A stretch of 64,000 nucleotides of DNA from Astropecten irregularis (taxonomy: Eukaryota > Echinodermata > Asteroidea > Paxillosida > Astropectinidae): positions 8,886,931-8,950,930 of the forward strand of contig OZ020255.1 in the NCBI GenBank assembly GCA_963971285.1, given 5' to 3'. A program made the translations under genes and the position numbers. Under the pieces are notes generated by a model. It worked only from the letters and a program-made list of their open reading frames with translations. It did no database searches and was not told the DNA's origin. Each line of letters opens with the position of its first letter. Position 1 is the first letter of the stretch. This document shows positions 1 through 47,157 of this stretch, in pieces.

Positions 1-111
1 GAAATGTATACGTTACTTCATCCACGATGCACGCGGAACAACTGCGACAATATCCTTTTTATCAAGTCTAGATTGGTTATGTATTGTGGATACCTTGTGG
101 GCATTGATTGG
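1..111 (+). repeat. Left terminal inverted repeat of the large element
   Basis: Read forward, this stretch matches the reverse complement of 20305-20414 almost base for base, for example CACGCGGAACAACTGCGACA. Differences are seen near positions 8, 99 and 102. It may continue to the left of the window. The match fades at about position 111, where the integrase gene's leader begins. Confidence 0.85.
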
Positions 112-291
112 CATGGGTTTGTACTCATTACTGATGATATCCATGAAGAACTATTTGTTTGACGTCCGTGTATTTTCAAAGTGACTTTTATAATTAAGCA
201 TACCACACACCGGTTCCCTATCATGTGGGTGTACATGTACGTACGGTCACTGTCATGACTGTGTTGCATCCTTAACATTTCCCACCACGAG

Positions 292-3200
292 ATCACTTGG
301 TACGCCATTACTTTGAAGCAGGCTACAACTATGATGAACTTCGTTCTATTTTGGTCCTTCGACACAGTATAAGCATCAGGTAGGATACTTGATTCATTAT
401 TTAGTAAACATGGATTATTGGATGGTGTGAAGTCAGGCCTAAATAACATCCTATTTTGTATGCTGAAACTTCAAAAGAGAAGGAAAAAACAGCATGCATA
501 CGACACGTACGAAAAAATAATTTTGTTTCCAAACTGTGAGCAAGTAGAATTATTTTGAGTTTCATGTTTCTTTCTACTCGCACATTTTTAAGATTTATAA
601 TAACTTTATGCCATTCGTGTTATGCCAGCCTCAGAACGCTGCACCGCATTCTTCGCAGATTGAATCTTCGTAGAAACAGCCCAGATGACTTGACAATAAA
701 CAGGTTTCTAATGAGCTTGGAGGTAAGCTAAATGTAATGTCCCATGTTTAGAAAATGGCAATGAGTGGAGAGACATACTTTTGCACAGTTGTACATTTTT
801 GTTTCTTGTTCTCTTGAATCTTGGTGAATAATAGTAAATAATAATGGTAATGATGAAAAAAACCGAGGATGGGACCGTTGGGAGACTTTCCCTTAGGGTC
901 GTGCACAAACTTTACTAACCTATTTCCCCCAAACCAATGAACTTGAAATTGACATATTTTTCATTGAGAGCATTCTCTGTCTTCTATTAAAATATGGACA
1001 GTAAAAAATATGTATTTAAAAGGTAGCTGGTACCTTAGGGAGACATCGAAATTTAAGTCTCCCTATAAGTCCCCATGTCTCCCTAATACTATAGTTTACC
1101 CCATTTGTAATTAATATAATGATAATGATAATAATGTTGCATATCTCACATTGTGGATACTAACTCATTTCAACATTTAACCGAGTTACACAAATTGTAC
1201 TCGAGGAAAGTAAGGATCGAATCTGTATCATTTTGGTACACTAAGTAGAAAGTTCATGGCTGTAGAGGTTTTTTAGCGTACAATGTTCCCTCATTGGATA
1301 TCCTTCCTCTTTAATCATCAAACACAGTGCAGGTCCGCTGAAGTCCTTATGCAGGTGAACTATACTAGTATGAAAAACATAAAATTCTGTGTTATGGATG
1401 TACTTAACGAATTATGCTTATACAGAATGAACTACAAGGCAGTGGACACAACCTGGGGTGCCGAGCCATGGCAAGAAGGATGTTATCCCGGTACAATATA
1501 AATATTCCAAGGTATGTGTAATAATACAATGAGTCTCTTTTACCTGGTTCAGTGTCACTGGTTGTTTAACTTGTGGATTGAGTCATTCCTAATTATTTTA
1601 CTTGGAATCAAGGTACTAATTGTGAGATATTTTATTTTAAGGAGCATCGTTCTTGAAGGGCAACGCTTGTTAGACCCTCTTGGGGTGGAACTACGGCGAA
1701 GGCACAGACTGAGGAGAAGATCATATGTCAATAAAGGGCCGAACTATGCAATTCATGTTGACCAGCATGACAAACTCAAGGTGTATGGTTTTGCTGTGCA
1801 CGGTGCTATAGATGGGTAAGGGCACAGTCAGAAGTGACTTCACAGTTGTTAGACAACCTGATTAACTTGATTTGTAATGATCTATTGCGTTTGTCAAATT
1901 GCCCTGCAGCAGCAACTTTTACCTATAGATCACGTTAGAAAACCTCATTAACCCTTATTATTGCAAATCGTTTTGTTTGTAGTTTTTCAAGGAGAATTTT
2001 ATGGCTCAAGGTAGCACACACGAACAACGATCCACAAGTTGTGGCATCATACTTTGTCGACTTTCTGCAAGAAATAGAAGGTTAGTTTTTCATCTGATAT
2101 CCTTCAGAAATAGTCTATTACAATATATGCCATCCATTCACGAAATTAATAACAGTGTTGAAAAGAACAATGTACATGTTATGTTGGTAGGGGTTCCACG
2201 CTGCATTCAGATGGACAGGGGGACAGAAAATGTCTTGATTGAGGACATCCAAGAAGCATTCCATGCACAGTATAATGGGAACGACCACTGTGTTATCAAG
2301 AGTACTTCTCCACATAACCAGGTAGGCCAACTTGACATTGTTGACGTCATAATTTAGCATTATTACTCCGAATTATACATACATTGGATATATCATTTAT
2401 ACATTTGGACATGAATTATATTCTATGAGAACTGCGCAGATTACCGATCGAGCAAAGGAGAATCTACGATGATAACAATGTGTTCCGAAAGGCAAATCAG
2501 TCTAACTCTCAAATGAATGAAACCAGGAAATAATAGCGACTCCCATAAAAAAATGGCAGCCACAGTCAAACAAACGACTTTTTTTTCTGTTGGCTGTTGT
2601 AAACAATTAACAATATCTGATTACCGAAACAAACTTCTTTTTATTATTGTTGTTGTTCATAGCGAATTGAACGCTTCTGGAGGACATTGTTTTCCGTTAT
2701 GGAAAACTACTGGGTGGACGTTTTCCGGGATTTGACGTTTGATGGCATATTCGATTGTACCTCACCACTGCAAGTGTAAGATTGATTCATCTCATTTTCC
2801 CTGGCTATGCAGTAATCCGAGAACACAGTTTTGAATGGCGCCCTCTTTTGATTAAAACAACAAAGTGCGGTGGTGTTTAATAATCTAAGTGCACTACAAC
2901 TCCGGCTTGGTGCATGATGGCCATTTTATTCCTGAAAGGAACATGAACCTAGTAGAATATTCGGCATGGACAACATGTCCCGGATTTCCCCACCGTTCTT
3001 TTGCTCATGATTAGATTTCCAGCTTCCCACTGATTTCAATTAAAGATGATTTGGCAGTGTATACTGACACCACCGCAGTTTCTTTCTCAAAAGAGGGCGC
3101 CATTATAAATTATGTGCTCGAATTACTGTATACAATTTGATTTTGTGGCCTGACGAAAATGAAGGCTAACTTTTGTATTTATTTTCAAGCGGACTGTTTG

Positions 3201-3933
3201 GATTGTAATAACAATAATTAAAGAATATTTAAATAAAACTGATGGTGATAATGGTTACTTTGCATTTAACTCTATTATGCAAATCATTAATTTGAGACCA
3301 GGTTACCTAATAGATTTCATACTGTTGTCATGCATGACAGCCTAATTGTCGGTTTTGCCCTCATTGTTTTATATTTAACTGCAGTGAATGTTTCAGGTTT
3401 TGCTTCAACCAAATGATTCAATCTGAGCTGGATAATGCAAGAATAGAATGGAACCAGCATCGCACAAGAGCATCCCCAAATGTTATCGCATTACCTGGAA
3501 AACCCGACTTGATGTATTTCTTACCAACACTTTACGGTATGACTTTGTTCTGTTTTCCCTGCACCATACTAACATCATTGCATTATGAACCGCGATGACT
3601 GTATTGTAACTTTAAAATGCTGCCCATTCCTTTTCCTTTCTACATATCATTGAAGATTCATGTGCAGTTCCACTGACTGAAAATGCCGTAAAAAATGTAG
3701 TTTTTTTTCAATGCACAGATACTCATGACTATCGCATTCCAGTGCCACTTGGAGATGTTCTTCAAGTGAAGGATGAGTTCACAACGCCACCGACAGCAAA
3801 AGGATGTTCTTCAACCGATATGGAAGATGTTCTGCAAGGTCTCATGACAGCTAACAACAAAGTCATGCCTTCCACAGTAACAGAGGGAATCCAGTTATTT
3901 CAGTGGCTATGCGAAAAATTGGAAACTGAATAA
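292..3933 (+). CDS. rve-type DDE integrase/transposase, about 10 exons
   Basis: Exons fitted by reading frame and GT-AG phase: 292-379, 629-722, 1328-1354, 1426-1511, 1642-1815, 1983-2080, 2191-2321, 2663-2775, 3397-3536, 3719-3933 (stop TAA). They total 1166 nt, about 387 residues, with no internal stop. The N-terminus holds a YFEAGYNYDELRSIL helix and a SLRTLHRILRRLNLRR segment, like the helix-turn-helix of this family. Next comes an ELQGSGHNLG motif, then LRRRSY..KGPNYAIHVDQHDKLK. The catalytic triad is visible: D in HVDQHDK, D in IQMDRGTEN 58 residues later, and E in NQRIERFW 37 residues after that. The C-terminal part has IQSELDNARIEWNQHR and GKPDLMYFLP, both typical of these integrase-core proteins. 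The predicted role is strand transfer of the surrounding element in the nucleus. The 27-nt exon at 1328-1354 and the first exon are the least certain. No in-frame ATG is seen before residue 1 of the model, so a short upstream exon is probably missing. All triad residues are present, so it may be active. Confidence 0.83.
380..628 (+). other. First intron of the integrase gene
   Basis: The donor is GTAGGA directly after 379 and the acceptor is TTATGCCAG before 629. The phase is 2 on both sides, rebuilding an ISIS-LRTL junction. Nothing else is recognised inside. Confidence 0.6.
880..1086. repeat. MITE-like repeat with GGGAGAC ends, copy 1
   Basis: This stretch begins GGGAGACTTTCCCTTAGGG and ends with repeated AGTCTCCCTA blocks in inverted sense. 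A related copy lies at 50816-51067, sharing the interior ATTGAGAGCATTCTCTGTC. It sits in an intron of the integrase gene. Confidence 0.6.
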
Positions 3934-3934
3934 A
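3929..3934 (+). terminator. Poly(A) signal overlapping the integrase stop codon
   Basis: The sequence ACTGAATAAAGAGG contains AATAAA, which overlaps the TAA stop (3931-3933). A second AATAAA lies at about 4225. A polyadenylation signal overlapping the stop would leave almost no 3' UTR, a compact layout. It could be coincidental. Confidence 0.4.
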
Positions 3935-4732
3935 GAGGTTCTTCACCAATAGGGCTATTCCATCACATTTTGATAAAAAAGGAGAGGCCAAATTTCGGCT
4001 GCTGTGTACATGTAACCTAAAAATATGATTAATCATACTGACCATAACTATACATCGTTTCAAAAAGATACCAGTATTACTATCATGACAGTTCAACAAA
4101 ACAGATGGAATTTTGCCATGTTCTTGCTTTTTATTTTTCTCTGAAAACTGTTACACTATCAACGTTGATACAATTTGAATAAGGATTAACAATTTCCTGC
4201 TAAAAACAAACGAGTACCCTTAGCAATAAAGTAATGTACCCAGTTTCAAAGTTAGAATTATAATTTTTATTCCTCGATCTTTTAATTCTTTTTTTTTTCT
4301 TTTTGGTTTGTTTGTGAAAACAGTTCCAAGAATAGCAAGCCTTTTGTTGCTACTTGATGTTCATGGCAATCCCATTGTAGTATTTCATGACTTATGATTG
4401 TAAAACTTATTATTTGCAGGCGTGAAGGGGGCGTATTGTTTATAGAGTGTACTTAAATGCAACAATCTGCAGTGGCTGGCTCATAATTATGACAAATGTT
4501 TAACTTCAAATGCTTTTGTTGGAAATGATATGTAATAAAAAAGCAGGCTAACACTGAGTTTAAAGAAGAAGAAATTGGTACTTAAATTAAAAATAAAACA
4601 CTTAACATTAAAAAAGTACCAACAAGAATATAAAATGTTCTACAATATCAATCACAGATTTTTTATTATAAAAATAAAATTTACTGATATAAAAATCACT
4701 ATAATCGGTGAAAGAAATATTCCGACATTTTA
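3935..4732. other. Gene-free spacer between the convergent genes
   Basis: AT-rich DNA with poly-T runs. I see no coding signal and no repeat family shared with the rest of the window. Confidence 0.5.
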
Positions 4733-4933
4733 GACACAGCCTGCTTTATTGAACGTGAGTTAGAAAAGTCTGGACAACTACATGGTTACAGATGGATGCA
4801 CCTTCGTTGCATCCAGAACGGTCTTACTGTTACAAGGGAGACAGTGCGTCATCTATTAGCGTTGCTAGATCCTGAGGGTGTGCAGCAAGGGACTGAGTTA
4901 CATGCACAATTGTATCAAAAAGGACATCAATGA
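4733..4933 (+). pseudogene. Decayed fragment of a second, divergent integrase
   Basis: One open frame (ATT at 4748 to TGA at 4931-4933) reads IERELEKSGQLHGYRWMH, then VTRETVRHLLALLDPEGVQQ. It matches, position for position, the segment of the intact integrase that runs ELQGSGHNLG...LLDPLGVELRRRHRL. After LDPEGVQQ the expected Arg-rich stretch and YxxKGPN are degraded, and a stop follows directly. There is no ATG and no neighbouring catalytic exon. It is best read as a leftover of a related transposase copy that diverged before the intact one. A role as an alternative exon is possible but unsupported. Confidence 0.65.
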
Positions 4934-5129
4934 GTATAATAGACACAAGTTGTGTGGCTTTTCCACTTTACTTAAAACACATGAATCAGAGTGTCGTGCA
5001 AATACGTACAACGTCCTCACCATAATTATTACATGCCAAAAATGTTGTTAATCATTTCAATGAAACAGTTAATAACACATGTAAAATGGCCCCATTGTGT
5101 TTTCTCTATAAAAATGGAAAGAGGGCTCA

Positions 5130-5478
5130 CCTGGATGTGATTTTGGCATGGATTATCTAAAATCACATCCCGGCCAGAATCACATGCAAGATTAAACCAT
5201 TTAAGTCCAAGATCACATCTTGAAGTAGCGCCTTGCCAAAATCACATACTCCAATATTTGGGGAGGTGTTCAAACTTGATGTGATTTTGTGGCCAGACAG
5301 AGAATGTGATTTTGCAAAGGCGCCAACTCAAGTTGTTATCTTGGACTTGACGACTTGGAATGGATGTGATTTTTGGCTTGGATGTGATTTTCGATAATCC
5401 CTGCCAAAATTACATTGTTTCAAACATCACTTGCCCATAAATTACATTTTTTTATTTGTAGGGAAAATCACATCCAGG
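5130..5478. repeat. Inverted-repeat element built on GGATGTGATTTT motifs
   Basis: The motif GGATGTGATTTT and its complement AAAATCACATCC occur about ten times in mixed orientation. The outer copies are inverted (CTGGATGTGATTTTGGC at left, AAAATCACATCCAGGCC at right). This is a MITE-like or palindromic repeat with no coding content. Confidence 0.6.
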
Positions 5479-5998
5479 CCATTCAGTGTCAAAAGGCACG
5501 ACCATATTTTGTAGCAGAGTTTAAGCCTCTGATACAAGCTAGTGAACATGTACACCCAAGCTTTTTCAATTTGCCGTTGCTGCTTACATCCCCTATTCGA
5601 TGCTAATCACATAAATTATTAGATCCTCCATATTTTTACTCTTATAAAAGGAAAGTCTCTTCTTGAACACTTATAAAAACTTTAACAAACTTTTGTAAAA
5701 ACTTTTATCAAACTCTTATAAAATATCTTTGCATAAAAATAGATGCCTTGCTTCTTGGAACTGCTGATTTGTATAGAACTTGGAAGAATCAGAACAGAAT
5801 GCATCCATTTTGCCCAAAATGGACTCGGAATAAAGGATATCTATATACATGTACGAAAGTATAGTACTGTACACTTGCAGCACACAAACTTTAATTAAAT
5901 GAGTAACAACATGAGTTTAATTTTCAAAATGCTGTATTTTGGGCAAGAAAACAAAAATATTTAAATTTACAAAGTTTCTTACTGAGAGGGATACCAAA

Positions 5999-6575
5999 AG
6001 TGATGTTTCTCAGTCCATGATTGGGTGAACAATGAGCCTAAAGATTTATACTTCCATGAAGTACAATTCATAAGCTACACAACCATACTAAAACCAAGGA
6101 AATACAAATAATCTACATGTATCAAGTTGTTGGCAGGCAAATTGCCTATTTCCTAATAAGGATGACTTTCCCAAAAAAGCATATGCTGTGAAGTGTATAT
6201 TATACATGCACTTCAACATACGCTTTTGGGGAAAGTCATCCTTACTCACGTGCCTTGATTAATCTTTATTCCATCTGTAAATCGTCCAATAAATCAGTTG
6301 ATCTGTCATCTTGCCTGCCAACAACTTGATAGATCATTTGTTGTAATTAGACGAAAAGGTCCAGATTTTCATGAAGAAGTATACATGTATTTACATGTAG
6401 TTAGTACATGTTCGGCTTTGTAATGGGGCAATTCCACAGAAATGTCAACCTGACGAGGGTCACATTTAATATTTCATTGCATTCATATTGGTTTTAGTAT
6501 GGTTGTGTAGCTAATATGGGAAATACTTCATGAAAATATAAATCTCTAGTCTATGGCTCAGAAAACAAATCCCAA
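5999..6575. repeat. Nested palindromic MITE, ~575 bp
   Basis: There are two nested inverted pairs. The outer arms include GCTACACAACCATACTAAAA (about 6074-6093) and its complement at about 6491-6510. The inner arms are CAAGTTGTTGGCAGGCAA with its complement at about 6313-6330, and AAGGATGACTTTCCC with its complement around 6229-6243. The whole could fold into one long hairpin. It is non-coding. Confidence 0.65.
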
Positions 6576-6662
6576 ACTGTCCAGTTAATTACACCCTTTA
6601 ACATCAAAGTGCTCCATTAATTAGGTTGGTCCACATGCAGTCTCAAACAGTTTCTATGTGAG

Positions 6663-6668
6663 TTTATT
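6663..6668 (-). terminator. Poly(A) signal of the HECT ligase gene
   Basis: On the - strand AATAAA begins 7 nt after the TGA stop (6676-6678). With the equally close signal of the integrase gene, both genes of the unit would have minimal 3' UTRs. Confidence 0.45.
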
Positions 6669-6675
6669 CTCTATA

Positions 6676-9600
6676 TCATATTTTACCAAATCCACTGGTA
6701 GCTTTTATAGCAAACCTGAATGTGTCTTCAAAAGAATTTGGGTCTTCCTCCCCTCTAGGGAGCATTAGTGTTGGGCCACATGTATGGCTTGACGGCAATC
6801 GTTTTACGTCTTTGATTGCCGTGAAGAATGCAACTGTTGGTGCTTCTTGGAATCCACATGGTGGTGGCTTTGGAGCTCCAGTCCAGAACTGAAGAACTTC
6901 CTCAAGGGAAACATCTGTGTTCTTTTCTGAGTGAGATATTAAGAAAGTGATTTTTTTTAAGACAGAGCAAATGGTGCTAGTCATTGAGCAAGACTTTTTT
7001 TTGCATTCATATGCACATCTATGTCGCTATTACTAAAAACAGTCTTTCCAATTTGAAATGAACTCCTGTTGGAAGTGACAGACTAGCAATTAGTACTTCG
7101 GATGGTTACTCAACTTCTGTTTGAGCAAAATTCCAACGCCCCCCCCCCCTCCCCAAAAAAGGAAGACTCATCATACTCTACAATACCACAATACCTCTAG
7201 TAGGCTCTAGTCAAGATTCTTGTCTACATGTATTCTGGTGTTTATCACATCTGATTATTCCCCATCCCAGCCCCTGAAAAATGATACAAAGCTACTGGCC
7301 TTCATCATGTTCACAAAGGTCACCAGAGGATATAGATATTTCTATAATGGCAAAGCAAGAATACTTCATTTTCAGATTTGGACAAGTACGGTTTCATACA
7401 AAAGAAAATGCTCCACTGAAATATCTGTCCAGGGGACATGAAGTCCATTGATCCCTTCAAGGCCATCAGAATCGATATACACAATGACAATTATTCCCAC
7501 TTTATGAGCACTTGACATTTTGACTTTACTTGGTCTTGAATAAAATTTGGGTTTAAAGATAAAGTCTTAAACTACCCCTATGGCACAGCACTGTAACTCT
7601 TGGTAACTCAGTTTGTCATTATGAAATTGAAAGATTTGGGGACAAGACAAACCTTCACAATTTTGTAGGAAAATCTCGAAGCTGTATACAGTGTCTTCTT
7701 CTCGACTCCTGTTGTTGGACCCTTCTGCCGAGTACTCAATTTTATACAAACGGCGAAGCACATTCACTGACAATGGCTTGTCATCATGAATGAATAGACA
7801 GGATGTTGCTTTGGGATTTCGTTTAGCATCTTCCCAAAGGGGACCAAGTCCATCGGTGAACTGCTGGATGCAAGTCTGGACCCTATTTTAACATGAATAG
7901 TTGAAACAAGTTAAACATTTTACCATCTTTCTATTAACAATCATGTATGGTTTTATTGTACTTCCATTCCAATGTAACTGGCAGATGAGGAACATTATTG
8001 TAAATTCTTGGTTCCACACTTCTTTCCAATAAACTCATTCTTGCCCAATATCTTTGAGATAGCTAAGCATCCATTTGAAAATGTGCCTAGAATGGGGACC
8101 TCCAAAATGCACAAAAGATTGACATGACATAATTATGATTATGTCACTGTATTTCGATTTGATTGAGGCCTTGATGTTAAGAGTGGCCCTGAAATTATTT
8201 TATTTTCATTTTTTTAAATTTTAATTTATCCCACAAAGGGTGATCATTATTGGGGGTCCACATTTGTGCACAAATTTATTAAACTCAACTGTATCTCCCA
8301 GGGTTTAAAAATTGCGAAAAATACATTTCTCCTAAAAGAGCACAGTATTATGATTGTGGGGCGAGTGTGGCAAAGGTGTATGGCATCTGCCTCTTAGGCA
8401 TCACACACAGTGCCAGGCTACAACTCGGGGCAGGGAGGCAAACCCAGGTACTGCTACTCCCCTCGACAGGGTCCAAGTGTCTCTTTATTTACATCTTGGT
8501 TCTCTTTATTTACATCTTGGTTGTAAAGTTTTATTTTGTTTGCAGAGTTTATAGACGGTGCTGACGGTCAATGTTTTTGTTCAATTGAAATGTATGTGAA
8601 TGCTAATGAGTGTTACTAAAGAACTTGTTCCATTCCCCTTGATCCTCCTCGTGTTCACCTGCTCCCCCACTGCCTTTTGTTTTTTGTAATTGTCACCCGT
8701 GGTACCTGTAGTATATCTGGTGTGCCAGCAGCTCCTTGGCAAGATTATCTCGGCCAGCAAAGTCTATCTTGTGGATGTTGGAGATACCCTGATCTAAGAG
8801 CCAGTCTGTCAGCTCCCCGATGACTGCTGGAAAGTCTTCTCTGTTTGAGCCCAACAGCTGAAATTGAAAACCCAAGAAACTGTTACTGGGACCGATTTCA
8901 CTAACGTTTGCGATCCTCGCTAATGCCTGAATCCATCGCTAAACAGAAAATTGCTACGCAAAATAGCGATTGATTTTCCGTTTAGCGATGTATTTGGGTT
9001 TTAGAGATGATCACAAAAGTTAGTGAAATCGGCCCCTGATTCATCACTCAATAAATGTTACAAATGGGAAGTAAAAAACACTATGTTGAAAAAGCCAAAC
9101 TCTGCTTATGCACCGCAGCCTAATTTTAAAATTCATTCAAATAGGACTGAGGACAAAAAATATACATTCTCTTTTTGTTAACATTGTTTTGATTTAGAAC
9201 TTTTGCATGACCATGGCCAACTTCTGAGCAAGTACCAACAGATAATTATATGTCATTACCAATACACATGTATATTTGTTTTTACATTACAACAATGAAC
9301 TTAGGCATTTTTTAAAGGTGACAAACCTTCTCAATGTTACAACGATAAGACGGATCTGCCAAGTAGTTGGCGTCTGCCAAGTCAAGTGGTTGGCCTACCA
9401 TGGCAGCAAAGACAGAGGAATTCAGAGAACACAACCCCGGTCCTCCATTTGCTAAACTCCACGTGACAAATTTCCCAGCCATTTCATATTTTCTTTGGCT
9501 GATTTCATGCAGATCGTATTTGAAGGACAACCTTCCTTCAATATTCTCAAATATCCCTGAGCGTTGTAATTCCTTCATCAGAAGGCTGTAAAAAAAATAA

Positions 9601-12600
9601 AAAATTATGATTAGATTAATCATGGTTTTACCTGACAACACCATGGAGGTCTAAAAGATACTAGGGCATCCCATGGGAACATCATGGACAGCTAAATCAA
9701 TACCGCCAGTGTCTCCCATCCATAGGCACAACAATAAGAACATGATTGCAAAAGGAGCAATATGGGGTACGTTGGTCACCCCCAAATTAACTACCGGTAC
9801 CGAAATTATACATGTTCAATAATTAATGCGCAATCAACGAAAATCAGGCAGCAATCTAACAGTTATTGTAGTAACCTAAAATTGCAGTTTGACTTGTTTA
9901 TGTACATTCCCCACAACTGAAAATCACCACAGTGTGATTGGGATGAGATAAAGCTGTAATCATAATTGCACACAAAAACATATGTAATTTCTTTTGTGTT
10001 GATGCATCTGTAGGAGAGGGAATTTGAACATGTATTTTTTTATTTGATTTTAACCATTATTGTGTGTGCATAGAAAAGACTAGGCTGTTTTACCAGAGAT
10101 CATGAACTTATATTTTGCTGTTGTTGGGAACTTATTTTGGTTTGGCCTTGAAGACTAGTTTTAAGGAATTGTTTTATTTTTATTTGCCCTGTTTCTAGAT
10201 GTTTCTATAAGGATTCAGTGTTGTTGAGTTTTCTCATGCCTTTCAGTGTTGAGTTTCATGACCCTTTTGTTAAATCCTTGTTTCCTGTCCTGTCTTCATG
10301 TTATCCCTGGTTCAGTGACTTTGTGATATGTGCCCCTTTCTTTCCCATGGTCCTTGTGTTTATAGTGTAATTATGTAAATTAGAAGATAAGAGTCCTGTG
10401 CTTGGGAGTTTTGTGCAGATGGTATTAGCCAGAGGAGTTTTGTAGTCAGTTCAGCAGAGACCAGAGTGTGATATAGTCCTCTTGTTTTCTCTAGCTTGTG
10501 TATTCACTATTTTCTGGTTGTTTTACCTGAGTTTTGATTTTCTGTGTTGATTTTGATTTGCTGCTGTTTTGCTGAGTTTTTGGTTAGTTCTATTGTTGGT
10601 TTTGGGGGTTTTTTTCATCTCAAAGGTTTTTTTTTGCTTTTGGCTGGTTTTGATTGTGTTTCTATTTTTTGTTCCAAACTTCGACTATTTTTAATAAACA
10701 GTTCGCGTCTTGTCCTTTAGATCCTTGGTTTGTTTAGTGTGTCATTTTTCTTGGTTACATTTTTGGTGGAGAATCCGGGTAAGGACTGTCGTTTTTAGGA
10801 AACGTAGCCAACTGTTTGTTTTTGGTGGTCAAGTTTGAGGTCTTTTTCATTTTTTTTGTTCGGTCAAACTCAGCATTCTTGTAGTATAGTCGGATCAGTG
10901 CATGATGATAGACACAGTTCAACCAGTGGTGTTGACCACACTTCAGTTATGTGGATTCGATCCAATTCCTGCCCCCACATGGACACATCAGATGGCTGAA
11001 GAAGATGGATGCCGAGCCTCCCAGCAGTGCAGTATGTGTGTCACGGTGATGAGGGAACAAGCCTGTATGCAGCAAATCATCATGAGGCAAGCCGAGCAGT
11101 TGAGGCAATTGCAAGGAATGATGGCCAAGATTCTTGGAGAGCAGAGGCACCATGCAGAACAGTTCTTGCAACCTGCCAGAAGTGCCAGCCCAAGTACAGC
11201 CAAGCCAGCCACAACGATGAATGCACACCTACACCCAATGCCTGTGCATGCCAAACCACAGAAGGATGAGGACGTGGAGAAGCGACCGTCTTGCCAGACC
11301 AGATGTGGAGTCGACAGCACAAGTTTGAGGACGGCACAGCACAGCGACCGGGACATCAGGAGAGTGATCGAGTTGAAGTCGAGCTGCTGGAGAAAGCCGT
11401 GTCCGAGCAGAGTGGAAAGGGAGCCTGCAATGGTGCAGAAGTTTGTCCACCTGTGGGAACAACTGGAGGTGAGACATGGGATCCTGTACTTCACGAAAGG
11501 TGGCCGACAAGATGGTGCAGATCGATCTATACTGGTACTTCCATGGAAGTTGAGAGAAGTGGTGCTCAACAGCCTACACACGGACATGAAGCAACTGCCT
11601 TATGGACAGATCCTTCGTCGAGTTCGGGAGCTGTATTACTGGCCCAATCTCCATAATGAAGCGATGGGGTACATGAGGAAACATCTCAAGACAGTCCGAC
11701 CAGTCGCATCTGCCCACGTCATTCCACCTCCGCCAAGATTTCGAGACGATTGAACTATAATTGAACAATGATGAACTTTCCGTTGCAGTTCTATGAACTT
11801 GAACAATGAACAATTTCTTCAGATGTATTTTGCTATTGATTTTGTTTGTGATCATTGGCAGATGAATTTGATGTATTGCTATTTTGTATTTTTCATAATT
11901 TGTATTCATGTGTCTTATTTCTCCATACAAGTATAAGGTTTTATTTTTTTTGTATTGCTGAGGACAGCAATGATTTAACCAGTGGTGAGTGTAGGAGAGG
12001 GAATTTGAACATGTATTTTTTTATTTGATTTTAACCATTATTGTGTGTGCATAGAAAAGACTAGGCTGTTTTACCAGAGATCATGAACTTATATTTTGCT
12101 GTTGTTGGGAACTTATTTTGGTTTGGCCTTGAAGACTAGTTTTAAGGAATTGTTTTATTTTTATTTGCCCTGTTTCTAGATGTTTCTATAAGGATTCAGT
12201 GTTGTTGAGTTTTCTCATGCCTTTCAGTGTTGAGTTTCATGACCCTTTTGTTAAATCCTTGTTTCCTGTCCTGTCTTCATGTTATCCCTGGTTCAGTGAC
12301 TTTGTGATATGTGCCCCTTTCTTTCCCATGGTCCTTGTGTTTATAGTGTAATTATGTAAATTAGAAGATAAGAGTCCTGTGCTTGGGAGTTTTGTGCAGA
12401 TGGTATTAGCCAGAGGAGTTTTGTAGTCAGTTCAGCAGAGACCAGAGTGTGATATAGTCCTCTTGTTTTCTCTAGCTTGTGTATTCACTATTTTCTGGTT
12501 GTTTTACCTGAGTTTTGATTTTCTGTGTTGATTTTGATTTGCTGCTGTTTTGCTGAGTTTTTGGTTAGTTCTATTGTTGGTTTTGGGGGTTTTTTTTATT

Positions 12601-15600
12601 TGAGATTTTTTTATTTTTGACTTTACATTCTAGGTTTCCATTTTTTATTCATCTTTGGCTATTGTGTTTTTTTCCCTAAATTCCAACCTTGAAGTGTGTT
12701 GATCGCTGAAAGTATTTTTTATTGGTTTTTTTTGTGGAAGTTAATAAAGAAACATTTATTTTTTTGGGAACCTAAATTTCTTCTCTTTGTCCCAACTTTA
12801 TTGAGTATTTTGCGACTGATCAATTGAACCAGGAGACTTTGGATTATGATTTTTGCTATTTTCTGGTGTTTTGTTTAGCGTACGGATTTTCTCCGCTACA
12901 CATCAAATCAATTATTAGTGCAACTGAAAAGTACAATTTACTTGAAGTATTCACGACGTGGACCTCCTCCGTCCTCAGCATCCTCGCCGGAAAACACAAT
13001 TCGCACCGGAGACCAAAAGTCAAAATCTGGCCCGCTGACAGCCCTCATGGTCGTTGCAAGTAGACGCTTCCGATGCACAATAATTGTCTTAGGCTCTCCA
13101 TCTGAGCGCAAGCCAGCAAGCGAAGAGACAATGTTGCTCACAAGATCATCCTCATCTCTGTTTATAAGGGGAATTTAAATGAAAAACATTCATAATACAA
13201 TAAATCTTCACAGAAAACTATCGCTCAGTACTGGTATAGCAAAAATGTACCCAATCTAGGCAAGATCTTTTGTTACAACCTTAAAAAATTAATACTAAAG
13301 TGAAGGTATGAATATTAAATGATTTTTGGTCGGGAAATGGATAATATGCAAATTAGGTTTACCCTTCACCGACATAGATGAGCACTGTATACTCCGTGCT
13401 TTTTCACGTGCTCTCATATGCACTGAGTATACAGTGCTCATCCACGTCGGTGAAGGGCAAGCCTAATTTGCAAAGTGAAGGTAATGATTTACATTACATG
13501 GTGGAAACATTTGAGACACTCTTCAGCGCATAGGTAAACGAACTATAGAGCTGTATAACTGCCTCCTCATGTTTTGGCTCACCATCCTGGCCATGGTTAC
13601 TGGCATCATATCCACTGCCATTTTGCTAATGCAACTACAATGTGCCCTCTTTCAATATCAAAAGAAAAACCAAATAAATGTAAAACCAAGCAGAAAGATA
13701 AAGAATGGCATACTTTTGTTCTTGCCTGGATGTTTCAGCTCTCTTACATGTACGATATATTAATGGCATTTGTGGAACACAATGAATAGGAATAACCAAG
13801 ATCTCCATGCACGACCAGGACAATTTTGGAGGAAAAACCAGATGGTACATGTACCACTTTGGCATTGAAAGACTTGATAATGTGATAATATCCTCGATGT
13901 ACCGGTTTTTGAGGATGTTGTAAGCATTTATTTCATGCAGGATAAAAAGTTACATACAGAAGTAAACTGTTGGCAAACCGATTTGGCTTGCGGTGGACAG
14001 GTACAGGGTGGAGCACATACCATACAGAAAACAGATCAACTGGTTGTGTGATACAGGCCCACGCGTCGCTGACAGTGACGTCCTATATAGGAGGTCAATC
14101 CTCGAAAACTAAATGACTCGAAAAGAGGCCTAGGCTAGGCCAACACTGACGATAATAATAGTTAATACCCTCCAAATTGATCATCTTCTCAATAGTACAA
14201 TAATACGGTACCTTTCATCATGCATTGGCCGAATGTCCCTTAAACTTGCTAATATCGCTGCATTCAAATCGCAGTCTTCTCCACGATCACTATCATCACT
14301 GAGCAAGTCGACATAAGTTTGGTAGGTATCACTGGAACCTGTTTCCGAGTGCCCCTGTTGTAATGCCTGTATAGTGTAAGTGTAAACCAATCAGAGTCAT
14401 GTTCATTCCTCAAAGTACATACAACTTACAAGAGAGCACACGTCATCATCTTGCAATGCCACTCAACTTAAATACCGCCCTCTCGTGATGCTATTAATAG
14501 TGTCCCAATATGCAAATGAGACGTTGAAGAATCACGGTCATTCGATCAAATTCTGTGTTATTCTTTGAGGTCTCAGACCTTTAATATGAAACCATAACTT
14601 CCCTTCCACTTTTGCCTAAAATACAAATTTGTTACGTGCTGCAGGTGACAGAACAAAAAGAAATGAACCCCAATCCCCTGCTAAAATTGGAAAAAAGATG
14701 ACAGAATAATCAATTTGTCAAAATGAGTAATGCTTATGACACCACAAAAAAAACACATTGAAATAAGTGCTTTTAAAAACCATGCATTCTCAATTGTACC
14801 CCAACTTCCCCAAGTGTCCACTTTACCTGTTTTTTTCGCCGAAATTGTATTGTTGGGGTGTCACCGGCCTGTTTAAAGCTGACCATGTCTGGTTCTGTAA
14901 GCTGAGTTTTAAAGAAAAATTTTACTTAATGCAGGCTTCAATGTGCAATGGGAGACTTTTGAGAATCGGTTTTCGAGTCAACAGCGCACCCGTACGCAAT
15001 TGTGAGCTGCGTGCGGGTGCGCTGTTGTCTTTGGGACCAAAAGTCTCCCATTGTGCACCCTTTTTAACCTGCTACCCTTGCTTCTTGGGCCAAAACGTAT
15101 TCTATTCACCTTCCATCAAAATCACAGTGCATTCATGTACATGTACAGTGTACACCAATAGGGTGAGGATTTATCGTTAATTCAACCCTTTAAAAATAAT
15201 TGCTTAAAGAGTGCAATGTAAACCATATGTCGAGATTCAAAGAGGTGGAAATTTCGCTAGGTAGAAGTCACTGTAACATCAAAGGAAATAGGCTCAAGAT
15301 TCACCCTGTTTTCACCTAAATGTGTGGCATCTAGCTTCAGTTCATCCATGGAGGAAGTCTTTTCTGGTTCATCCAGGTTCAGGATAAGATGCACCGTAAT
15401 TTTATACGACTTAAGCAATTTATATGTTTAACAAGGATTCACCATGACTCCAATGTTAGGTGCAGATTAATCATGCCCCAAATAAAATTAAGTGAAGACC
15501 CGCCACATTGCTTTCAACACCCCAAACCAATGACCCCCCTCCCCGTTCGGCCATAATGGACCATTAAGGAGGGCGAGTTCAAGCCTTTCGTTTGCCTATG

Positions 15601-18351
15601 ATGAAGTGTACGGACTATGGAGGCCTAGGGATTCCGAATCACCGTACATTTCGAATTCTACCTGCATGGTTTTAATCTACCCCACCCATCAAAACACGTT
15701 AAAATTACTCGGTATAGCAGAATTCCAGCTTATCAAGTAAGTTTGGAGGCTTTTGGAAATAGTTTTGTCAAAATAAATAAAAAATTATTTTGCCGAGGCG
15801 CAGGTCAAAAGCGACGCGCGCGGTGACCAGAAACCGGATACTTCCACAACAAGAAAAATGCGGTTCAAGAAGCTCTTGAGATGCGGCTCTTCGGTAGAGG
15901 CTCGTAGAGCTTCATGCGTTCTTGATGCCAGCTCATTGTTTTCAAGCGCATGTACAGCAATCATAACATACCCATTTCGATACACTACCAATACATGTAT
16001 TTGGATTAACAGCATGTTACTTATGTGTAAAGCTAGGCCTGACTTGCACGCAAACCTTTGAGGATGATGATTTCTTGGCACTGATGTTGATATCTGGTAA
16101 TCCGGTCTCATCGTCTGTCTCATCATCGGAAGACAAGTCCTGACAAAATGTTCAAATTAAAAATCGGGGGTAAGATACACAAAGAGATACCTGAACGTGC
16201 AATAAAAACAATGGAAATTACAAAAAAAAGGGATTAAAAAGTCCTAGAAAAACGCATCGTTACTTAAATTAATGTATTATTCCTATTACCACAAATTCAT
16301 TTATAAACATCTTCAGTGACAGGTCAATGGAAATAATATTGTAATGCATTATGTCTGATAGTCTGCGAAACTTCTAAACTTCAGTATCATGAGCAATATG
16401 CAGGTCTGCTAATAGTTAGCTGTTCCGACATTCTGATGTCGGAACAGGTATTGTTTTCGTTCGGATTTTACATTATTATTATTCCTTCGAACTTTTTGCT
16501 CCCATAGCTTTGTGCAGTAAGTTTGTTTATTGCTTATCTCTTCTTAGCTTCTTCTGATCAGCTTAGATGAGGTATCATATGAAAGCTTATAAGCTAAGGA
16601 TCATACTGACTCTGAGTTGTAAAAATTCTTCATTAATAAAGCACGTGACAGCTCATTTGCATATTTAATTAGTCAATTCTGTTCGCAGCGTATCTTGAGA
16701 ACGGCAAATGCTACGGAAATGATTCTTTTTGCAAAAGCTCAGTTATATCATGTAGTTGTGCATGCTGCCACGAAATTTACCGTGACGTCATCATGACGTC
16801 ATCAAAAATGCTGATTTTATTATTAGCAGCATATCTCGAGAACGATAAGTGCTATGGTAATGATTCTTTTTGTAAAAGCTTTGTTACATCATGTAGTTGT
16901 GCATGCTGCCCCGAAATTTACAGTGACGTCATCATGACGTCATTTAAAAAAAAGGAAATTTTTGGTTAGCAGTATATCTCGAGAACGGTGAGTGCTACGG
17001 TATTGGTTCTTTTTTTTAAAGCTTTGTTAGACCCTGTAGATTTGCATGCTGTTGTGAAATTAACTGTGACGTCATTATGACGTCATCAAAAGGCATAATT
17101 TATGTTTGCAGCATATCTTGAGAATGACAAAAGCTATGGTAATGATTCTTTTCGCAAAAGCTTTTTTTAGAAACTTTAGATGCACGCTGCTTTGTAAATG
17201 ACCGTGACGTCATCATGACGTCATCGGAGCTTATAAAGCTGATCAAATAAGTCGGAACAGCTCCGTGTTCGTCCACGAACACTTAAATGTCTAGTATTGA
17301 TGTTGTAATTGACTCGCAGTTGAAGAATTGTATCACTTTAAATTGAATGATGGAAGAGCAAAATTAACAGCCACATTATACTTACATCGGATTTCCTGGA
17401 TGTGACAAGATAAACGCGAACAGGGTGAGTTTTCAGTTCCTGGCAGAATTGACCAAGAGTGAAATTATCGCCGGCACAAAAAGAATCCAATGTCTTCCCA
17501 CTGAATGTTGTCACGTTCGAGTGTAGATCGCTTAGATGAACACCCTTCACTTCGTTGACTCCGCCAGGAAAGAACAAATCTGTGCAGCATTTGATTATTT
17601 GCTCCACGGATGCGGTTTTCGGCAGTTGAAGGGGATATGACCCGCCACCGTTGCTGGTAGTTACCTGCTTCAAGTTGCCATCTTTCTTATCTCGATGTTT
17701 CCATCCAATGGTTATCTTCAGAGGCCGTTCCTCTTTGCCGATGTCCTTCCGTTTTGCCAGCCGTCGGTTTGTTACCATGTTTCGTAGTTTCTTCACTACA
17801 GGGGCAGTTGCCGAAGCACCTTTACAAGGAAACAGGCATTAACTGCAGTTGAAAATACCTATCACAATTCTTGAACAAGCGGCCACCATATAAATTATCC
17901 GTTACATGGAACATATCCATATTATGTAAGAATTGTCATTATTGTACATGAATAATTGTACTTACTGTTGATGTATTCCCTGCATTTCTGGCGAATTTTT
18001 ATTCGATCGCCAATACTGGCAACACCAAGAAGGTTGAAGTCGGCTTCATTGGCAGTAATAGCCTCTTTTGGTCCAACCTGAGGAAACCAGGAAATGATAG
18101 TGCCGTTTTTTATTATGAGTCCTGCCTCAGTTAGGTGAAAAGTTTCAGTTGAGCCCGCTATAAAGTGCCAACAGTGGCGTCACGGGACAAACATTAAGTA
18201 TAATACTCTATAAAGGAAATGTCCACATTGAAAAAATATTAAGAATGAATCATGAACCCCGCAAAGAATAACTTACGCCGTTATCACGGAATGCTGTTAT
18301 CGCCTCATCAGAAAGGCCTACGGAGGTCAGGATCTCCTCCATTGCGTCCAT
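6676..18351 (-). CDS. G2E3-like HECT E3 ubiquitin-protein ligase, 10 coding exons
   Basis: Coding exons in transcript order: 18351-18277, 18077-17966, 17819-17386, 16139-16056, 14366-14212, 13157-12942, 9585-9327, 8857-8706, 7882-7653, 6926-6676. The sum is 1968 nt, 655 residues plus TGA, and every splice phase agrees. Residues 1-62 resemble a SAM-type domain (TSVGLSDEAITAF, then LLGVASIGDRIKIRQKC). Residues ~90-200 hold the GGGSYPLQLPK...LFFPGG...VRVYLVTS domain usual in this family. Residues 208-235 are an acidic Ser-rich linker. Residues ~265-279 (EDCDLNAAILASLRD) fit a ubiquitin-interacting motif. The HECT domain starts near 330 (VRIVFSGEDAEDGGGPRRE). It continues through FAAMVGQPLDLADANY and ends in SLEEVLQFWTGAPKPPP, LPSSHTCGPTLMLPR and GFGKI. 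The catalytic Cys is about residue 622. The family passes ubiquitin from an E2 through this Cys to a substrate; the substrate is unknown. The G2E3 PHD fingers are not seen. The ATG at 18349-18351 lies one base after an acceptor, so the start may lie in an upstream exon. Confidence 0.88.
6927..7652 (-). other. Last intron of the HECT gene
   Basis: Phase 1; the junction codon rebuilds Glu. It holds a C-rich run at about 7139-7156 and no recognised repeat. Confidence 0.6.
7883..8705. other. HECT intron with a short direct duplication
   Basis: TCTCTTTATTTACATCTTGG is duplicated head to tail at about 8480-8521. The stretch 8356-8470 (GTGGGGCGAGTGTGGCAAAG...) faintly resembles a decayed tRNA-like SINE head, which I cannot confirm. 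No coding signal is seen. Confidence 0.4.
8890..9036. repeat. Short hairpin MITE, ~147 bp
   Basis: It is bounded by GGGACCGATTTCACTAAC and the inverted GTTAGTGAAATCGGCCCC, with an inner inverted pair around ATCGCTAAACAGAAAAT and TTTTCCGTTTAGCGAT. It lies in the intron between HECT exons 7 and 8. Confidence 0.7.
10009..10759 (+). repeat. 5' LTR
   Basis: It starts TG and ends CA (...GGTTACA), 751 bp. The first ~607 bp match 11990-12596. AATAAA occurs near 10692. Confidence 0.65.
10902..11753 (+). pseudogene. Fused gag-like / integrase zinc-domain remnant of the LTR element
   Basis: The 283-codon ORF has two parts. Residues ~45-95 are Gln/Met-rich with a coiled-coil look (QQIIMRQAEQLRQLQGMMAK). 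Residues ~145-265 match the region before and within the integrase HHCC zinc domain of Ty3/gypsy pol (VRHGILYF, LVLPWKLREVVLNSLH, RVRELYYWPNLHNEAM). The usual second His in GHLG is lost (here LPYG). The CxxC pair is also lost (RKHLKTVRP), so zinc binding is not expected. Protease, RT, RNase H and the integrase core are absent. The frame is open, but the product would be a deletion derivative. Confidence 0.6.
11990..12596 (+). repeat. 3' LTR, matching part
   Basis: This part is identical by eye to 10009-10615. After the shared GGTTTTGGGGGTTTTTTT the two copies diverge completely, although both continue T-rich and later contain AATAAA. Confidence 0.75.
13339..13472. repeat. Hairpin MITE, ~134 bp
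   Basis: The arms are AAATTAGGTTTACCCTTCAC and GTGAAGGGCAAGCCTAATTT. The inner arms are GATGAGCACTGTATACTC and GAGTATACAGTGCTCATC. This is a near-perfect foldback in the intron between HECT exons 5 and 6. Confidence 0.75.
13893..14155 (+). repeat. ~260-bp repeat, copy 1 (inverted relative to 19065-19300)
   Basis: It shares GATAAAAAGTTACATACAGA, AGTAAACTGTTGGCAAAC, ACAGGCCCACGCGTCGCTGA and AAACTAAATGACTCGAAAA with the reverse complement of 19065-19300. It carries an extra short insertion near 13998 relative to the other copy. It is mobile-element-like; see the copy at 19 kb, which interrupts another repeat. Confidence 0.75.
14939..15060. repeat. Hairpin MITE, ~120 bp
   Basis: The outer arms are GTGCAATGGGAGACTTTT and AAAAGTCTCCCATTGTGCAC. 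The inner arms are CAACAGCGCACCCGTACGCA and TGCGTGCGGGTGCGCTGTTG. It lies in the intron between HECT exons 4 and 5. Confidence 0.75.
15061..16055. other. HECT intron, no recognised feature
   Basis: Unique-looking AT-rich sequence. The open frame overlapping 15785-16126 on the - strand is not the used frame; only 16056-16139 is exonic. Confidence 0.45.
16418..17262. repeat. TIR element with four ~140-bp tandem units, each with paired TGACGTCA
   Basis: It is bounded by AGCTGTTCCGACAT and the inverted GTCGGAACAGCT, with a short perfect hairpin TGTTCCGACAT-TCTG-ATGTCGGAACA at the left end. Inside, units starting near 16684, 16823, 16969 and 17109 share ATATCTCGAGAACG, TGCTACGG and AATGATTCTTTTTG. 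Each unit closes with two TGACGTCA octamers: 16783/16794, 16924/16935, 17067/17078 and 17205/17216. It sits in the intron between HECT exons 3 and 4. Confidence 0.75.
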
Positions 18352-18775
18352 CCTAAAAACAGTTTTAAAATACACATTTTTTAATGAACCAGGTTTTCTG
18401 GAAATTGCCATGTAGAAATACAAATTACAAAGACATATTTGCTGACACCAGCCAACACCAACCAACGTACCAAAGTTAATCGATATTGGTTACTGGGGTG
18501 GGTTCCAGTTGGTATGATAGTTTAGCACAATTCAGAATCATAATTCCGAAATCATCAATCTCACAATGATGTGTAGCCCCCAAAAGGCCAATTAACTTGA
18601 ATTGATGCAAAATCAACACCTTTAATTCACTACCTTGTTACTTTTCCTGAACTCAGTCTTAGAAAAAAAATCAAATCAAACAAATTATATTAAGTTAAAT
18701 TAGGAAGACAATGGTAGGATCGGCAGGCCCCTTAACCTAACCGTGTAAGTAATTTATAATTAAATTAAACAGACA

Positions 18776-19360
18776 TTAAAGGTAATATCATACTTTGTTT
18801 TTTTGTCAAAGAAATACCGATTCATGGAAACAAATATCAAGAAAGATACAGTAACACTTATCTGTGAAAATTTAAGTCTTTTTGAGAAAACGGCCACAGT
18901 ATTTCTTAAGCCTATATGTCTCTTCTCTTTTATTTTTGATCTTTAAACGATGAAAAATAATTTTGGTCACTGGTTTTACAATTTTCTGAAACAATACAGC
19001 ATTTCAGGAAGAAACATACGGGTAGGCCTACGTTTCTCCATCACCATATTGATACCGTGCAAGTTATCGTCAGTGTACCTGTTTTCGAGTCATTTAGTTT
19101 TCGAGGATTGACCTCTTATACGTCACTGTCAGCGACGCGTGGGCCTGTATCACATAACCAGTTGATTTGTTTTGTGTATGGTATGTGCTCCACCGCAAGC
19201 CAAATCAGTTTGCCAACAGTTTACTTCTGTATGTAACTTTTTATCTTGCTTGGAATAAAGGCTTACACCCTCGAAAACCGGTACATCGAGGATATAAGTA
19301 CATCTGTGAAGATTTCTGTTTCGGTATCCTACCAAAGCATGATACATATACTCCCTTTTA
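18776..19360. repeat. MITE family A (TTAAAGGTA ends), interrupted by the 19.1-kb repeat
   Basis: The left part, 18776 to ~19064, starts TTAAAGGTAATATCATACTT. The right part, ~19301-19360, holds CATCTGTGAAGATTTCTG and ends ACCAAAGCATGAT...CCCTTTTA. The two are the halves of one family-A copy, separated by an inserted repeat. Confidence 0.7.
19065..19300 (-). repeat. ~235-bp repeat, copy 2, inserted into a MITE
   Basis: It is the reverse complement of 13893-14155. The host MITE is split exactly around it, which shows that it moved after that MITE arrived. Confidence 0.75.
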
Positions 19361-19396
19361 GACAAACAAAATAATTAATATGTTCCACTGGCATAC

Positions 19397-19472
19397 CTTA
19401 ATTCCAGTCCCTCGATATGTCTCTGTGTCTCACTCACTACGTCAATGTCCACTCGATCGTTGACTACAATGG
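19397..19472 (-). other. Candidate upstream coding exon of the HECT gene
   Basis: On the - strand the frame reads VNDRVDIDVVSETQRHIEGL, then ELR up to a GTATGC donor. It ends in phase 2. Joined to the acceptor at 18352 it gives AG+G (Arg) followed directly by the ATG of the model, so it would extend the protein N-terminally. A usable acceptor (CACACAG) precedes it. The protein-like composition and phase fit are suggestive, but no homologous motif is recognised. Confidence 0.4.
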
Positions 19473-20304
19473 CTGTGTGACTTACTCACGTATATCAGAC
19501 GGGTTATTAAGAAAAGATTGACAGCAAATAAAATACGACGTATGTAGGCTTATCTGTTGTGTACGTATTGCGGAATCATATTTTAGTTTATTTGTTTGCT
19601 TTGCCATAAACGCTATTGTTTGGATTTCTCTGGCCACTCCTTCCTTCCCCCATGCTTATAGTCGGCAATCCATATCATTCTCAGGAAGTGTGCACGGTTA
19701 CAGTGTACATGTACAATGTACGTAAGTACACACCTTATACGTACCATACTGAGACAAAATACCTGTAAGTTGGAGGGGGAATTTGTACAGTATGAGTATG
19801 GGGAACATGATGTGGTCACGGAGAAAGTCTGAAAGAGAGTTATACAGCCAATTTGCTCGGTAGAATGGAATGCGGAATTCAGAGAGTATAAGAGAATTGG
19901 GGTGGAGAGATTGTCAGAAAATATGGTTACGAAATCTAAACTACACACAATGAAATAAACAGATCTGGGTATACATGCATAAATAATCATACTTGGGGCA
20001 CCATATTACAGTACACTATTTTCGTAAACATTGATTACATTTTGAAGTATATGGCGAAGTATTATTATACTTTTAATATGTATCATTCCCTGACCCATCA
20101 ATCAAAGCATGTGATTTGGATTGATCTATATACTAAGTTGACTATTTATAATAGGTTCTACTCGGTTCGTTTATTCGGTACAGTTGGTTGTAACTTGGTT
20201 AATTGTTTCCGCCACCCGTTATGGGTTTCAAAATTACCCACAGATCACCCAACTCCCTGTCCCCCGCGCCCCGTAGTACCGCTCATTACCCGACCACCCT
20301 CTGA
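19473..20304. other. Spacer between HECT 5' region and the right TIR
   Basis: No repeat or secure exon is seen. The HECT promoter should lie here if the gene is transcribed from inside the element. No clear TATA box or initiator could be chosen. Confidence 0.4.
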
Positions 20305-20414
20305 CAATCAATACCGACAAGGTATCCACAATACATAACCAATCTAGACTTGATAAAAAGGATATTGTCGCAGTTGTTCCGCGTGCATCGTGGATGAAGT
20401 AACGTACACATTTC
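20305..20414 (-). repeat. Right terminal inverted repeat of the large element
   Basis: This is the inverted partner of 1-111, ~97% identical by eye. It may extend to the right of 20414, but its partner would lie outside the window. Confidence 0.85.
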
Positions 20415-20547
20415 TGTCATGATTATGTCAAACCTGAAAGGTGTATGCCCATATTATGCCGGTACGATATGCGATGTGCATGTGCATGTACGTGTGGCGG
20501 TCAAAGGTCAACTTACTGGTCATGTGATAGTCACGTGGATTGATGAC

Positions 20548-20812
20548 GCCTAAAAAATGCGCCGCAAAAAAAAAAATGCGCCGCTAAAAAAAAAATGCGC
20601 CGCAAAAAAAAAAATGCGCCGCTAAAAAAAAAATGCGCCGCAAAAAAAAAAATGCGCCGCAAAAAAAAAATGCGCCGCAAAAAAAAAAATGCGCCGCTAA
20701 AAAAAAAATGCGCCGCTAAAAAAAAAATGCGCCGCAAAAAAAAAAATGCGCCGCTAAAAAAAAAATGCGCCGCAAAAAAAAAAATGCGACGAAAAGAAAA
20801 TGCGCCGCGTTA
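20548..20812. repeat. Minisatellite: poly-A plus TGCGCCGC, ~18 units
   Basis: Alternating runs of 7-10 A and the octamer TGCGCCGC (or TGCGCCGCT) form 14-16 bp units. Open frames on both strands are by-products of this low-complexity repeat. Confidence 0.9.
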
Positions 20813-20942
20813 ACGGCACAAATGGAACACCATAGCCTACATACATGATGCAGCACATTCTAAGCGGCCCTGAAGGCAAATTGAAAACAACATGCTTTAT
20901 GTCCCGTGAAAACAAAAGGGTGGGGTATATTTATAGGAAGGT

Positions 20943-39700: not shown

Positions 39701-39760
39701 TAATAAACTGCTGCAAACTGCTCATCAACCAAAATAATTACCTGAAATATTGTCATTTAG

Positions 39761-40303
39761 CCTTTGAGAAAGATCCTGCTAGGATCGAAACATCAGACCC
39801 TCCTAACTCTGAGCAGCCTTTGAGAAAGATCCTGCTAGGATCGAAACGTCAGACCCTCCTAACTCTGAGCAGACTTTGAGAAAGATCCTGCTAGGATCGA
39901 AACATCAGGCCCTCCTAAGTCTGAGCAGACTTTGAGAAAGATCCTGCTAGGATCGAAACGTCAGGCCCTCCTAACTCTTAGCAACCTTTGAGAAAGATCC
40001 TGCTAGGATCGAAACATCAGGCCATCCTAACTCTGAGCAGCCTTTGAGAAAGATCCAGCTCGAAACGTCCATCCTAACTCTGAGCAGCCTTTGAGAAAGA
40101 TCCCGCTAAGATCGAAACGTCAGACCCTCCTAACTCTGAGCAGCCTTTGAGAAAGATCCTGCTAGGATCGAAACATCAGGCCATCCTAACTCTGAGCAGC
40201 CTTTGTAGAAAGATCCTGCTAGGATCGAAACATCAAACCATCCTAACTCTGAGCAGCCTTTGAGAAAGATCCTGCTAGGATCGAAACGTCAGGCCCTCCT
40301 AAC
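39761..40303 (+). repeat. Tandem array of repeat D: ten ~56-bp units, hammerhead-like
   Basis: The units read CCTTTGAGAAAGATCCTGCT, AGGATCGAAACGTCAG, CCCTCCTAACTCTGAGCAG. GATCC/GGATC forms a hairpin, GAAAC(G/A)TC follows, and AGGC can pair with GCCT of the next unit. The array is preceded by the conserved flank ACTGCTGCAAACTGCTCATC (39709-39728). Confidence 0.85.
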
Positions 40304-47043: not shown

Positions 47044-47157
47044 TTTCATCAGACGTGCACAGCGCCCTCTAGTGTCGCGTACCGTTGGATATCTCAGCTC
47101 ATTATTTTTTTTTTTCAGCGCCTTCCATCGTGTTAATAATCTCGTGTTATTATTGTA

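Follow-up and report, generated by a model that had tools for sequence, protein, structure and literature searches.

A 64,000-nucleotide stretch of the genome of Astropecten irregularis (Asteroidea; contig OZ020255.1 of assembly GCA_963971285.1) holds, save for its outermost left end, a 21.3-kb transposon of the IS3EU type that carries a gene for a predicted transposase and, convergent to it, a gene for a predicted HECT ubiquitin ligase. I consider this reading likely, including its proposal that the ligase tags a host protein which restrains the element. From sequence comparison, the HECT gene is best understood as an accessory gene that is under selection and moves together with an IS3EU-type lineage. 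The sequence shows the tips, the target site duplication (TSD) and both reading frames of the element, and it shows the convergent pair recurring in five or more diverged families of this one genome. In the following, "the window" denotes the whole stretch, C19:8886931-8950930 of an assembly with 475,729,200 bases in 168 contigs; positions are counted from its first letter, and negative positions lie to its left.

Borders and genes of the element

The left border of the element was read from the 2 kb of assembly sequence left of the window (L006). Taking the window and this flanking sequence together, the whole element occupies C19:8886431-8907764, which corresponds to window -499 to 20834 and a length of 21,334 bp; within the window it is visible from 1 to 20834, its true left tip being at -499 (C19:8886431). 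The element starts with TATGG and finishes with CCATA, both tips read 5'-TATGGTGTTCCATTTGTGCCGT, and the TA..TA termini are present as TATGGTGTTCC at both ends. Directly outside both tips lies a perfect 6-bp TSD, GCCTAC, of which the right copy is at 20835-20840 and the left copy is outside the window. A 6-bp TSD was found in both of the two elements of which both ends were read, the other being a copy on contig C1 (family 2, see below) with the duplication GCTTGA.

The terminal inverted repeats extend from -499 to 113 on the left and from 20302 to 20834 (minus strand, tip 5'-TATGGTGTTCC read inward) on the right, each being approximately 530-610 bp long. Both contain arrays of 19-bp-type units, at 20552-20808 in the right repeat and similarly in the left one, and these arrays are of unequal length. 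An earlier note on this DNA had described near-identical inverted arms of about 110 bp as the bounds of a unit of at least 20 kb. The arms themselves hold, as 109 of 113 bases are identical when window 1-113 (plus strand) is compared with the inverted 20414-20302 (E 2e-49; a second comparison aligns 122 nt at 93%), but they are only the inner portion of the terminal inverted repeats, of which the left one continues outside the window. The edges at 1 and 20414 were thus false, owing to the window cut. The proposed minimum length agrees with the 21,334 bp given by tips and TSD, and the fixed-length target duplication that was to be looked for beyond the arms exists, as GCCTAC, on both sides of the full element.

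The gene of the predicted transposase, an integrase of the rva_4/DDE type, is on the plus strand at 300-3933 and consists of nine exons at approximately 300-379, 629-722, 1426-1511, 1642-1815, 1983-2080, 2191-2321, 2663-2775, 3385-3536 and 3719-3933. Joined, these give a frame of 380 residues with its sole stop at the end, in which the D,D,E triad is complete (D in HVDQHD, D in QMDRGTEN and E in NQRIERFW); an earlier version of 375 residues matches Pfam rva_4 at 2.3e-28. The earlier note had called this rve-type integrase intact, which is borne out by the triad and the open nine-exon frame but not at the N-terminus, where the start codon was sought upstream of exon 1 and not located, the frame there being interrupted by stops. 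A protein of Patiria miniata (P0001) is 84% identical over 77% of the query. For another relative, P0004, the predicted structure (predicted local distance difference test, pLDDT, 91.6) resembles IstA, MuA, TnsB and retroviral integrases (37 chains at E <= 0.001), with TM-scores that are low over the whole chain. The region of P0004 before the catalytic core gives weak helix-turn-helix-like Pfam matches and forms helices in the model; no dedicated search for an HHCC zinc motif was made. Among prokaryote genomes a single weak relative of the integrase was found (27%, L001), confirmed in one of 69 candidate stretches. A viral carrier of the pair is unsupported, as none of 34 candidate stretches for the integrase and none of 102 for the HECT protein were confirmed in viral contigs. 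Of the 118 listed integrase relatives that start with Met, 67 (for example P0003, P0009, P0010 and P0033) carry, close to the N-terminus, a strongly hydrophobic segment like a signal peptide (mean hydropathy over 12 residues > 2), which is unusual for a transposase.

The predicted HECT E3 ubiquitin ligase gene is on the minus strand at 6676-18351, convergent to the integrase gene as originally proposed, and it is complete: eleven exons run from the ATG at 18351 to the stop at 6676-6678, all ten introns are GT..AG, and the exons form a single, fully open frame of 680 amino acids. Residues 394-678 match Pfam HECT at 1.5e-15 (58.1 bits, with the cut-off at 23.9), and the catalytic Cys is found near the C-terminus in SHTCGP; it is kept in families 2-5 as well, that is, in all five families examined. 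The best relatives are proteins of P. miniata (51% identity) and Acanthaster planci (47%). A profile of four sequences returned the same 11 matches as the single sequence, the scored set being the 7,993 candidates that share most words. In P. miniata, the best integrase record and the best HECT record sit on different contigs (of 41.6 and 12.2 Mb), so that these two records do not form one element. Residues from about 90 to 205 of the HECT protein have no Pfam match, and for the relative P0121 the predicted structure is of low quality (mean pLDDT 46.8), with better values at P0121 residues 111-160; the name "ubiquitin-like" for this N-terminal module is a label of my own.

The gene pair elsewhere in the genome

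Searching the genome with both proteins gave counts that are lower bounds, with matches grouped into loci at 4 and 5.5 kb, distances which I chose. The integrase has at least 110 matches, forming 59 loci, and the HECT protein at least 66, forming 29 loci, 12 of which have HECT-domain exons and 17 N-terminal exons only. Eight of the 12 HECT-domain loci are located 1,991-2,898 bp from an integrase relative and all eight are convergent to it, where 0.2% would be expected by chance within 5 kb. A ninth pair, at C1:23.24 Mb, was recognised by hand: the N-terminal-only locus at C1:23.247 Mb has a convergent integrase at 3.5 kb and a diverged HECT domain (Pfam 2.9e-8). A further N-terminal-only locus, C9:10.88 Mb, has a convergent integrase at a distance of 13 kb; for the remaining ones the distance is at least 30 kb. 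A comparison of the 1.5-kb flanks of 30 integrase loci (L013-L042) gave no HECT match, which is uninformative as a control of the pairing, since true partners begin about 2 kb away.

On fetched sequence, tblastn recovered the pair in the window (family 1), on C20 and at C1:15.07 Mb (family 2), at C21:7.03 Mb (family 3), on C111 (family 4) and at C21:3.32 Mb (family 5); relatives of family 3 at C1:26.57 and 26.59 Mb are paired by search coordinates only. In this last region, C1:26.570-26.596 Mb, two family-3 integrases lie mirrored about 20 kb apart with HECT exons adjoining each, which could be either a palindromic duplication or an effect of the assembly. Of the tips that can be read, those of families 2 and 3 are TATGGTGTACTAT, and that of family 4 is TATGGTGTTCC with a GTCGCC array behind it. 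Just inside the tip, each of three families has a distinct short tandem array, with 19-bp units in family 1, approximately 21-bp units of the GTCGTGC type in family 2 and GTCGCC units in family 4; these are perhaps binding arrays for the transposase.

Family 2 speaks for movement of the pair as a unit. Its copies on C20 and C1 are 98.9-99.5% identical in three interior blocks of 9.3 kb in total, each contains integrase and HECT exons in convergent orientation, and the flanks at their integrase-side tips differ, which places them at different sites. The C1 copy extends over C1:15070373-15085595 (15,223 bp), with IS3EU-like tips TATGGTGTACTAT and the TSD GCTTGA. Taken jointly, the two copies show, at the level of sequence, a single unit that holds both genes and occupies two sites; no single family-2 copy displays both ends plus the whole HECT gene. 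The further copies with both genes that the earlier note asked for exist in family 2 on C20 and C1, and three further families pair the genes as well; the other copies of the window element's own arms lack the pair (see below). Within these limits, the outcome favours a mobile unit.

At C11:19.1-22.0 Mb there are 14 loci with the N-terminal module of the HECT protein in which no HECT exons were detected. One of them, at C11:20.234 Mb, is 84-90% identical to the HECT gene of the window, and a HECT-domain fragment is found just past the cluster, at 22.10 Mb.

Selection, proposed function and rival explanations

Purifying selection has most probably acted on both genes over a long period, because second codon positions are conserved in comparison with 4-fold sites, the aligned exons of families 1-4 are free of stops and the catalytic Cys is kept. 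Over the six pairs among families 1-4, the proportion of differing 4-fold sites is 0.61-0.71 for the integrase and 0.59-0.71 for HECT, and that of second positions 0.21-0.27 and 0.24-0.35, respectively, counted on tblastn-aligned codons only (311-344 for the integrase, 500-537 for HECT), which are biased to conserved stretches. In these four families the D,D,E triad is kept and the aligned exons are stop-free; family 5 has one stop among 360 aligned HECT positions, which may be a read-through into an intron. Protein identities of HECT and integrase are 43 and 55, 45 and 57, 49 and 55, 42 and 54, 43 and 51, and 54 and 56% for the six pairs, so that HECT is the less conserved of the two in each, by 2 to 12 points.

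In the proposed mechanism, the integrase would bind the tips, excise the element and insert it at another site with a stagger of 6 bp, as suggested by the tips, the TSD and the family to which it belongs. The HECT protein, with its predicted ligase activity, would load ubiquitin on the conserved Cys and hand it to a target that is selected by its N-terminal part. The proposed target is not the transposase of the element itself but a host restraint, such as a protein of silencing, chromatin or repair. I favour the host restraint because the ligase diverges faster than the transposase, and because the TET/JBP enzymes of fungal IS3EU elements are said to likely aid the escape of these transposons from methylation (PMC12730594). 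The sole pointer to cell-cycle timing is that one distant relative bears the automatic name 'G2/M phase-specific'.

Several observations weigh against this reading. Of the 12 HECT-domain loci, four are without an integrase within 5 kb (C1:7.29, C1:14.94, C11:22.10 and C9:7.40 Mb, the last with a convergent integrase 28.6 kb away), and, with both counts being lower bounds, a HECT gene was detected within 5 kb at only 9 of the 59 integrase loci. When the 6 kb downstream of four more distant integrases was fetched, one had a HECT gene, one the N-terminal module with a RING segment, and two, at C10:8.14 and C1:22.23 Mb, no HECT-like sequence in these 6 kb; the four are a mixed sample and not a clean negative control. 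The C1 copy of family 2 lacks 1.4 kb that are present in C20 (positions 6488-7900) and with them two HECT exons, for about residues 329-453, leaving 389 aligned HECT positions against 513 in C20. Both tips have been read for only two elements, those of the window and of C1:15.07 Mb, whereas C21 and C111 gave one tip each. The window element's own arms occur at two other places as single ends, with the pair missing from the 30 kb read: C1:9.22 Mb has the left end with integrase exons for residues 1-145, broken by about 5 kb, and C11:17.26 Mb has the last 1 kb of the right end at 98-99%. The codon counts carry the bias to conserved stretches named above, and the quicker divergence of HECT could be mere weaker constraint; it fits a changing host target, and is no proof of one.

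Some of these observations are as would be expected if the HECT gene were a passenger, captured from the host between the tips and of no help to the element. Capture of genes by transposons is known, four HECT-domain loci have no detected integrase nearby and HECT exons are gone from the C1 copy of family 2. I nevertheless regard this as quite improbable, as at least five diverged families retain HECT at the identical place and in the identical orientation with the catalytic Cys conserved, and as second positions in families 1-4 are conserved at near saturation of the 4-fold sites, where decay or variation would be expected of a passenger. That two host genes became neighbours by chance between copies of an unrelated inverted repeat is scarcely credible. 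Before the flanks were read, arms and two genes at one place could have been a coincidence; against it stand the 6-bp TSD directly at tips typical of the superfamily, a second TSD-flanked pair, and the excess of convergent integrases beside HECT-domain loci over the chance expectation.

The main rival, which I consider unlikely, accepts the same transposon and lets the ligase act on the element's own transposase, either tagging a stable strand-transfer complex for removal or limiting the dose of transposase. Removal of the Mu transpososome by a protein-driven process provides a precedent, and, as partners would, the two genes remain linked despite deep divergence. However, in all six family pairs HECT is the less well conserved of the two, which is less expected if the integrase were its sole substrate, and one related integrase seems to be paired with a RING segment instead. 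This integrase, at C1:14.172 Mb, is 43-44% identical and has one stop-free frame over residues 1-378. Downstream of it, convergent, lies a stretch that resembles the N-terminal module (31%; L053 1666-1974), no HECT domain being detected in the 6 kb fetched, and 1.9 kb beyond that stretch there is an open frame ending in a RING finger (Pfam zf-C3HC4_3, 2.2e-11). The two stretches, in the region L053 1621-4452, presumably form one gene.

The preferred reading, a ligase directed at a host restraint, can be extended, tentatively and with more doubt than confidence, to an animal IS3EU lineage in which a ubiquitin ligase is a second core gene used against the host. The conserved N-terminal module would pick the target and the catalytic end would be swappable, mostly HECT and apparently RING at C1:14.17 Mb, and the C11 cluster (19.1-22.0 Mb) would represent either the host's part in the conflict or the module's source.

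Known systems and further features of the window

Descriptions of eukaryotic DNA transposons usually stop at the transposase. RAG-like transposons have a RAG1-like transposase with a RAG2-like partner, unlike the rva_4 integrase and HECT enzyme found here. They resemble the present element in that a transposase-like and a second gene are convergent within one transposon (PMC7204232). IS3EU elements share with it the TA..TA termini, a TSD of usually 6 bp and an integrase-like DDE transposase, whereas the second gene is HECT here and neither 'HECT' nor 'ubiquitin' appears in the main text of that source (PMC10045372). Fungal IS3EU elements have TAYGG..CCRTA tips and a 6-bp TSD, and their TET/JBP gene is flanked by the transposase on one side and, on the other, by an alpha-kinase gene in the opposite orientation; they are thus similar in tips, duplication and the opposite orientation of transposase and accessory gene, but occur in fungi rather than an animal and carry a kinase and a dioxygenase in place of a ubiquitin ligase, the main text using 'ubiquitin' and 'HECT' 0 times (PMC12730594).

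The IS3EU superfamily and the accessory enzymes of its fungal members are already known, whereas searches of the open-access PMC library gave no description of a recurrent second gene for a HECT ligase. Among the papers listed there, of which three lists covered 30 of 202, 20 of 36 and 15 of 19, no title or start of an abstract names a transposon with a HECT gene; Repbase, Dfam and subscription papers fall outside this scope, so that an earlier description is possible there. The TET/JBP and kinase genes of the fungal elements are a hint that the superfamily gathers enzymes which manage the host. With a ubiquitin ligase retained as second gene over such deep divergence, protein tagging would become a weapon or a regulator of transposons in animals. 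Some caution would also apply to marine invertebrate annotations, as some HECT-ligase-like genes in them may be transposon genes: the automatically named proteins P0121 (Patiria miniata), P0122 (Acanthaster planci) and P0123 (Ruditapes) have a HECT domain and an alignable N-terminal region like the protein described here, differ from it in being annotated as ordinary genes, and may be transposon-borne.

The element itself also holds other sequences. A long terminal repeat (LTR) retroelement is located on the plus strand at 10009-12900, in the intron that separates HECT exons 7 and 8, with CATC on both sides (10005-10008 and 12901-12904) and its ends placed by eye; its LTRs are identical over approximately the first 600 bp, and it is a recent insertion. 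Between the two genes, at 4700-4888 on the plus strand, tblastn detects part of another integrase, diverged but from the same broad family, with only its N-terminal region present (51% identity to P0084). A copy of an approximately 245-bp element lies in a HECT intron, at 13880-14128 on the plus strand, with an inverted partner at 19078-19303 on the minus strand. A dispersed repeat family of approximately 360 bp is present within the element at 18776-19067 and at about ten places between positions 24 and 57 kb of the window, and tandem arrays of related units of about 50-56 bp are found at 39759-40304, 47156-47673 and 63812-64000.

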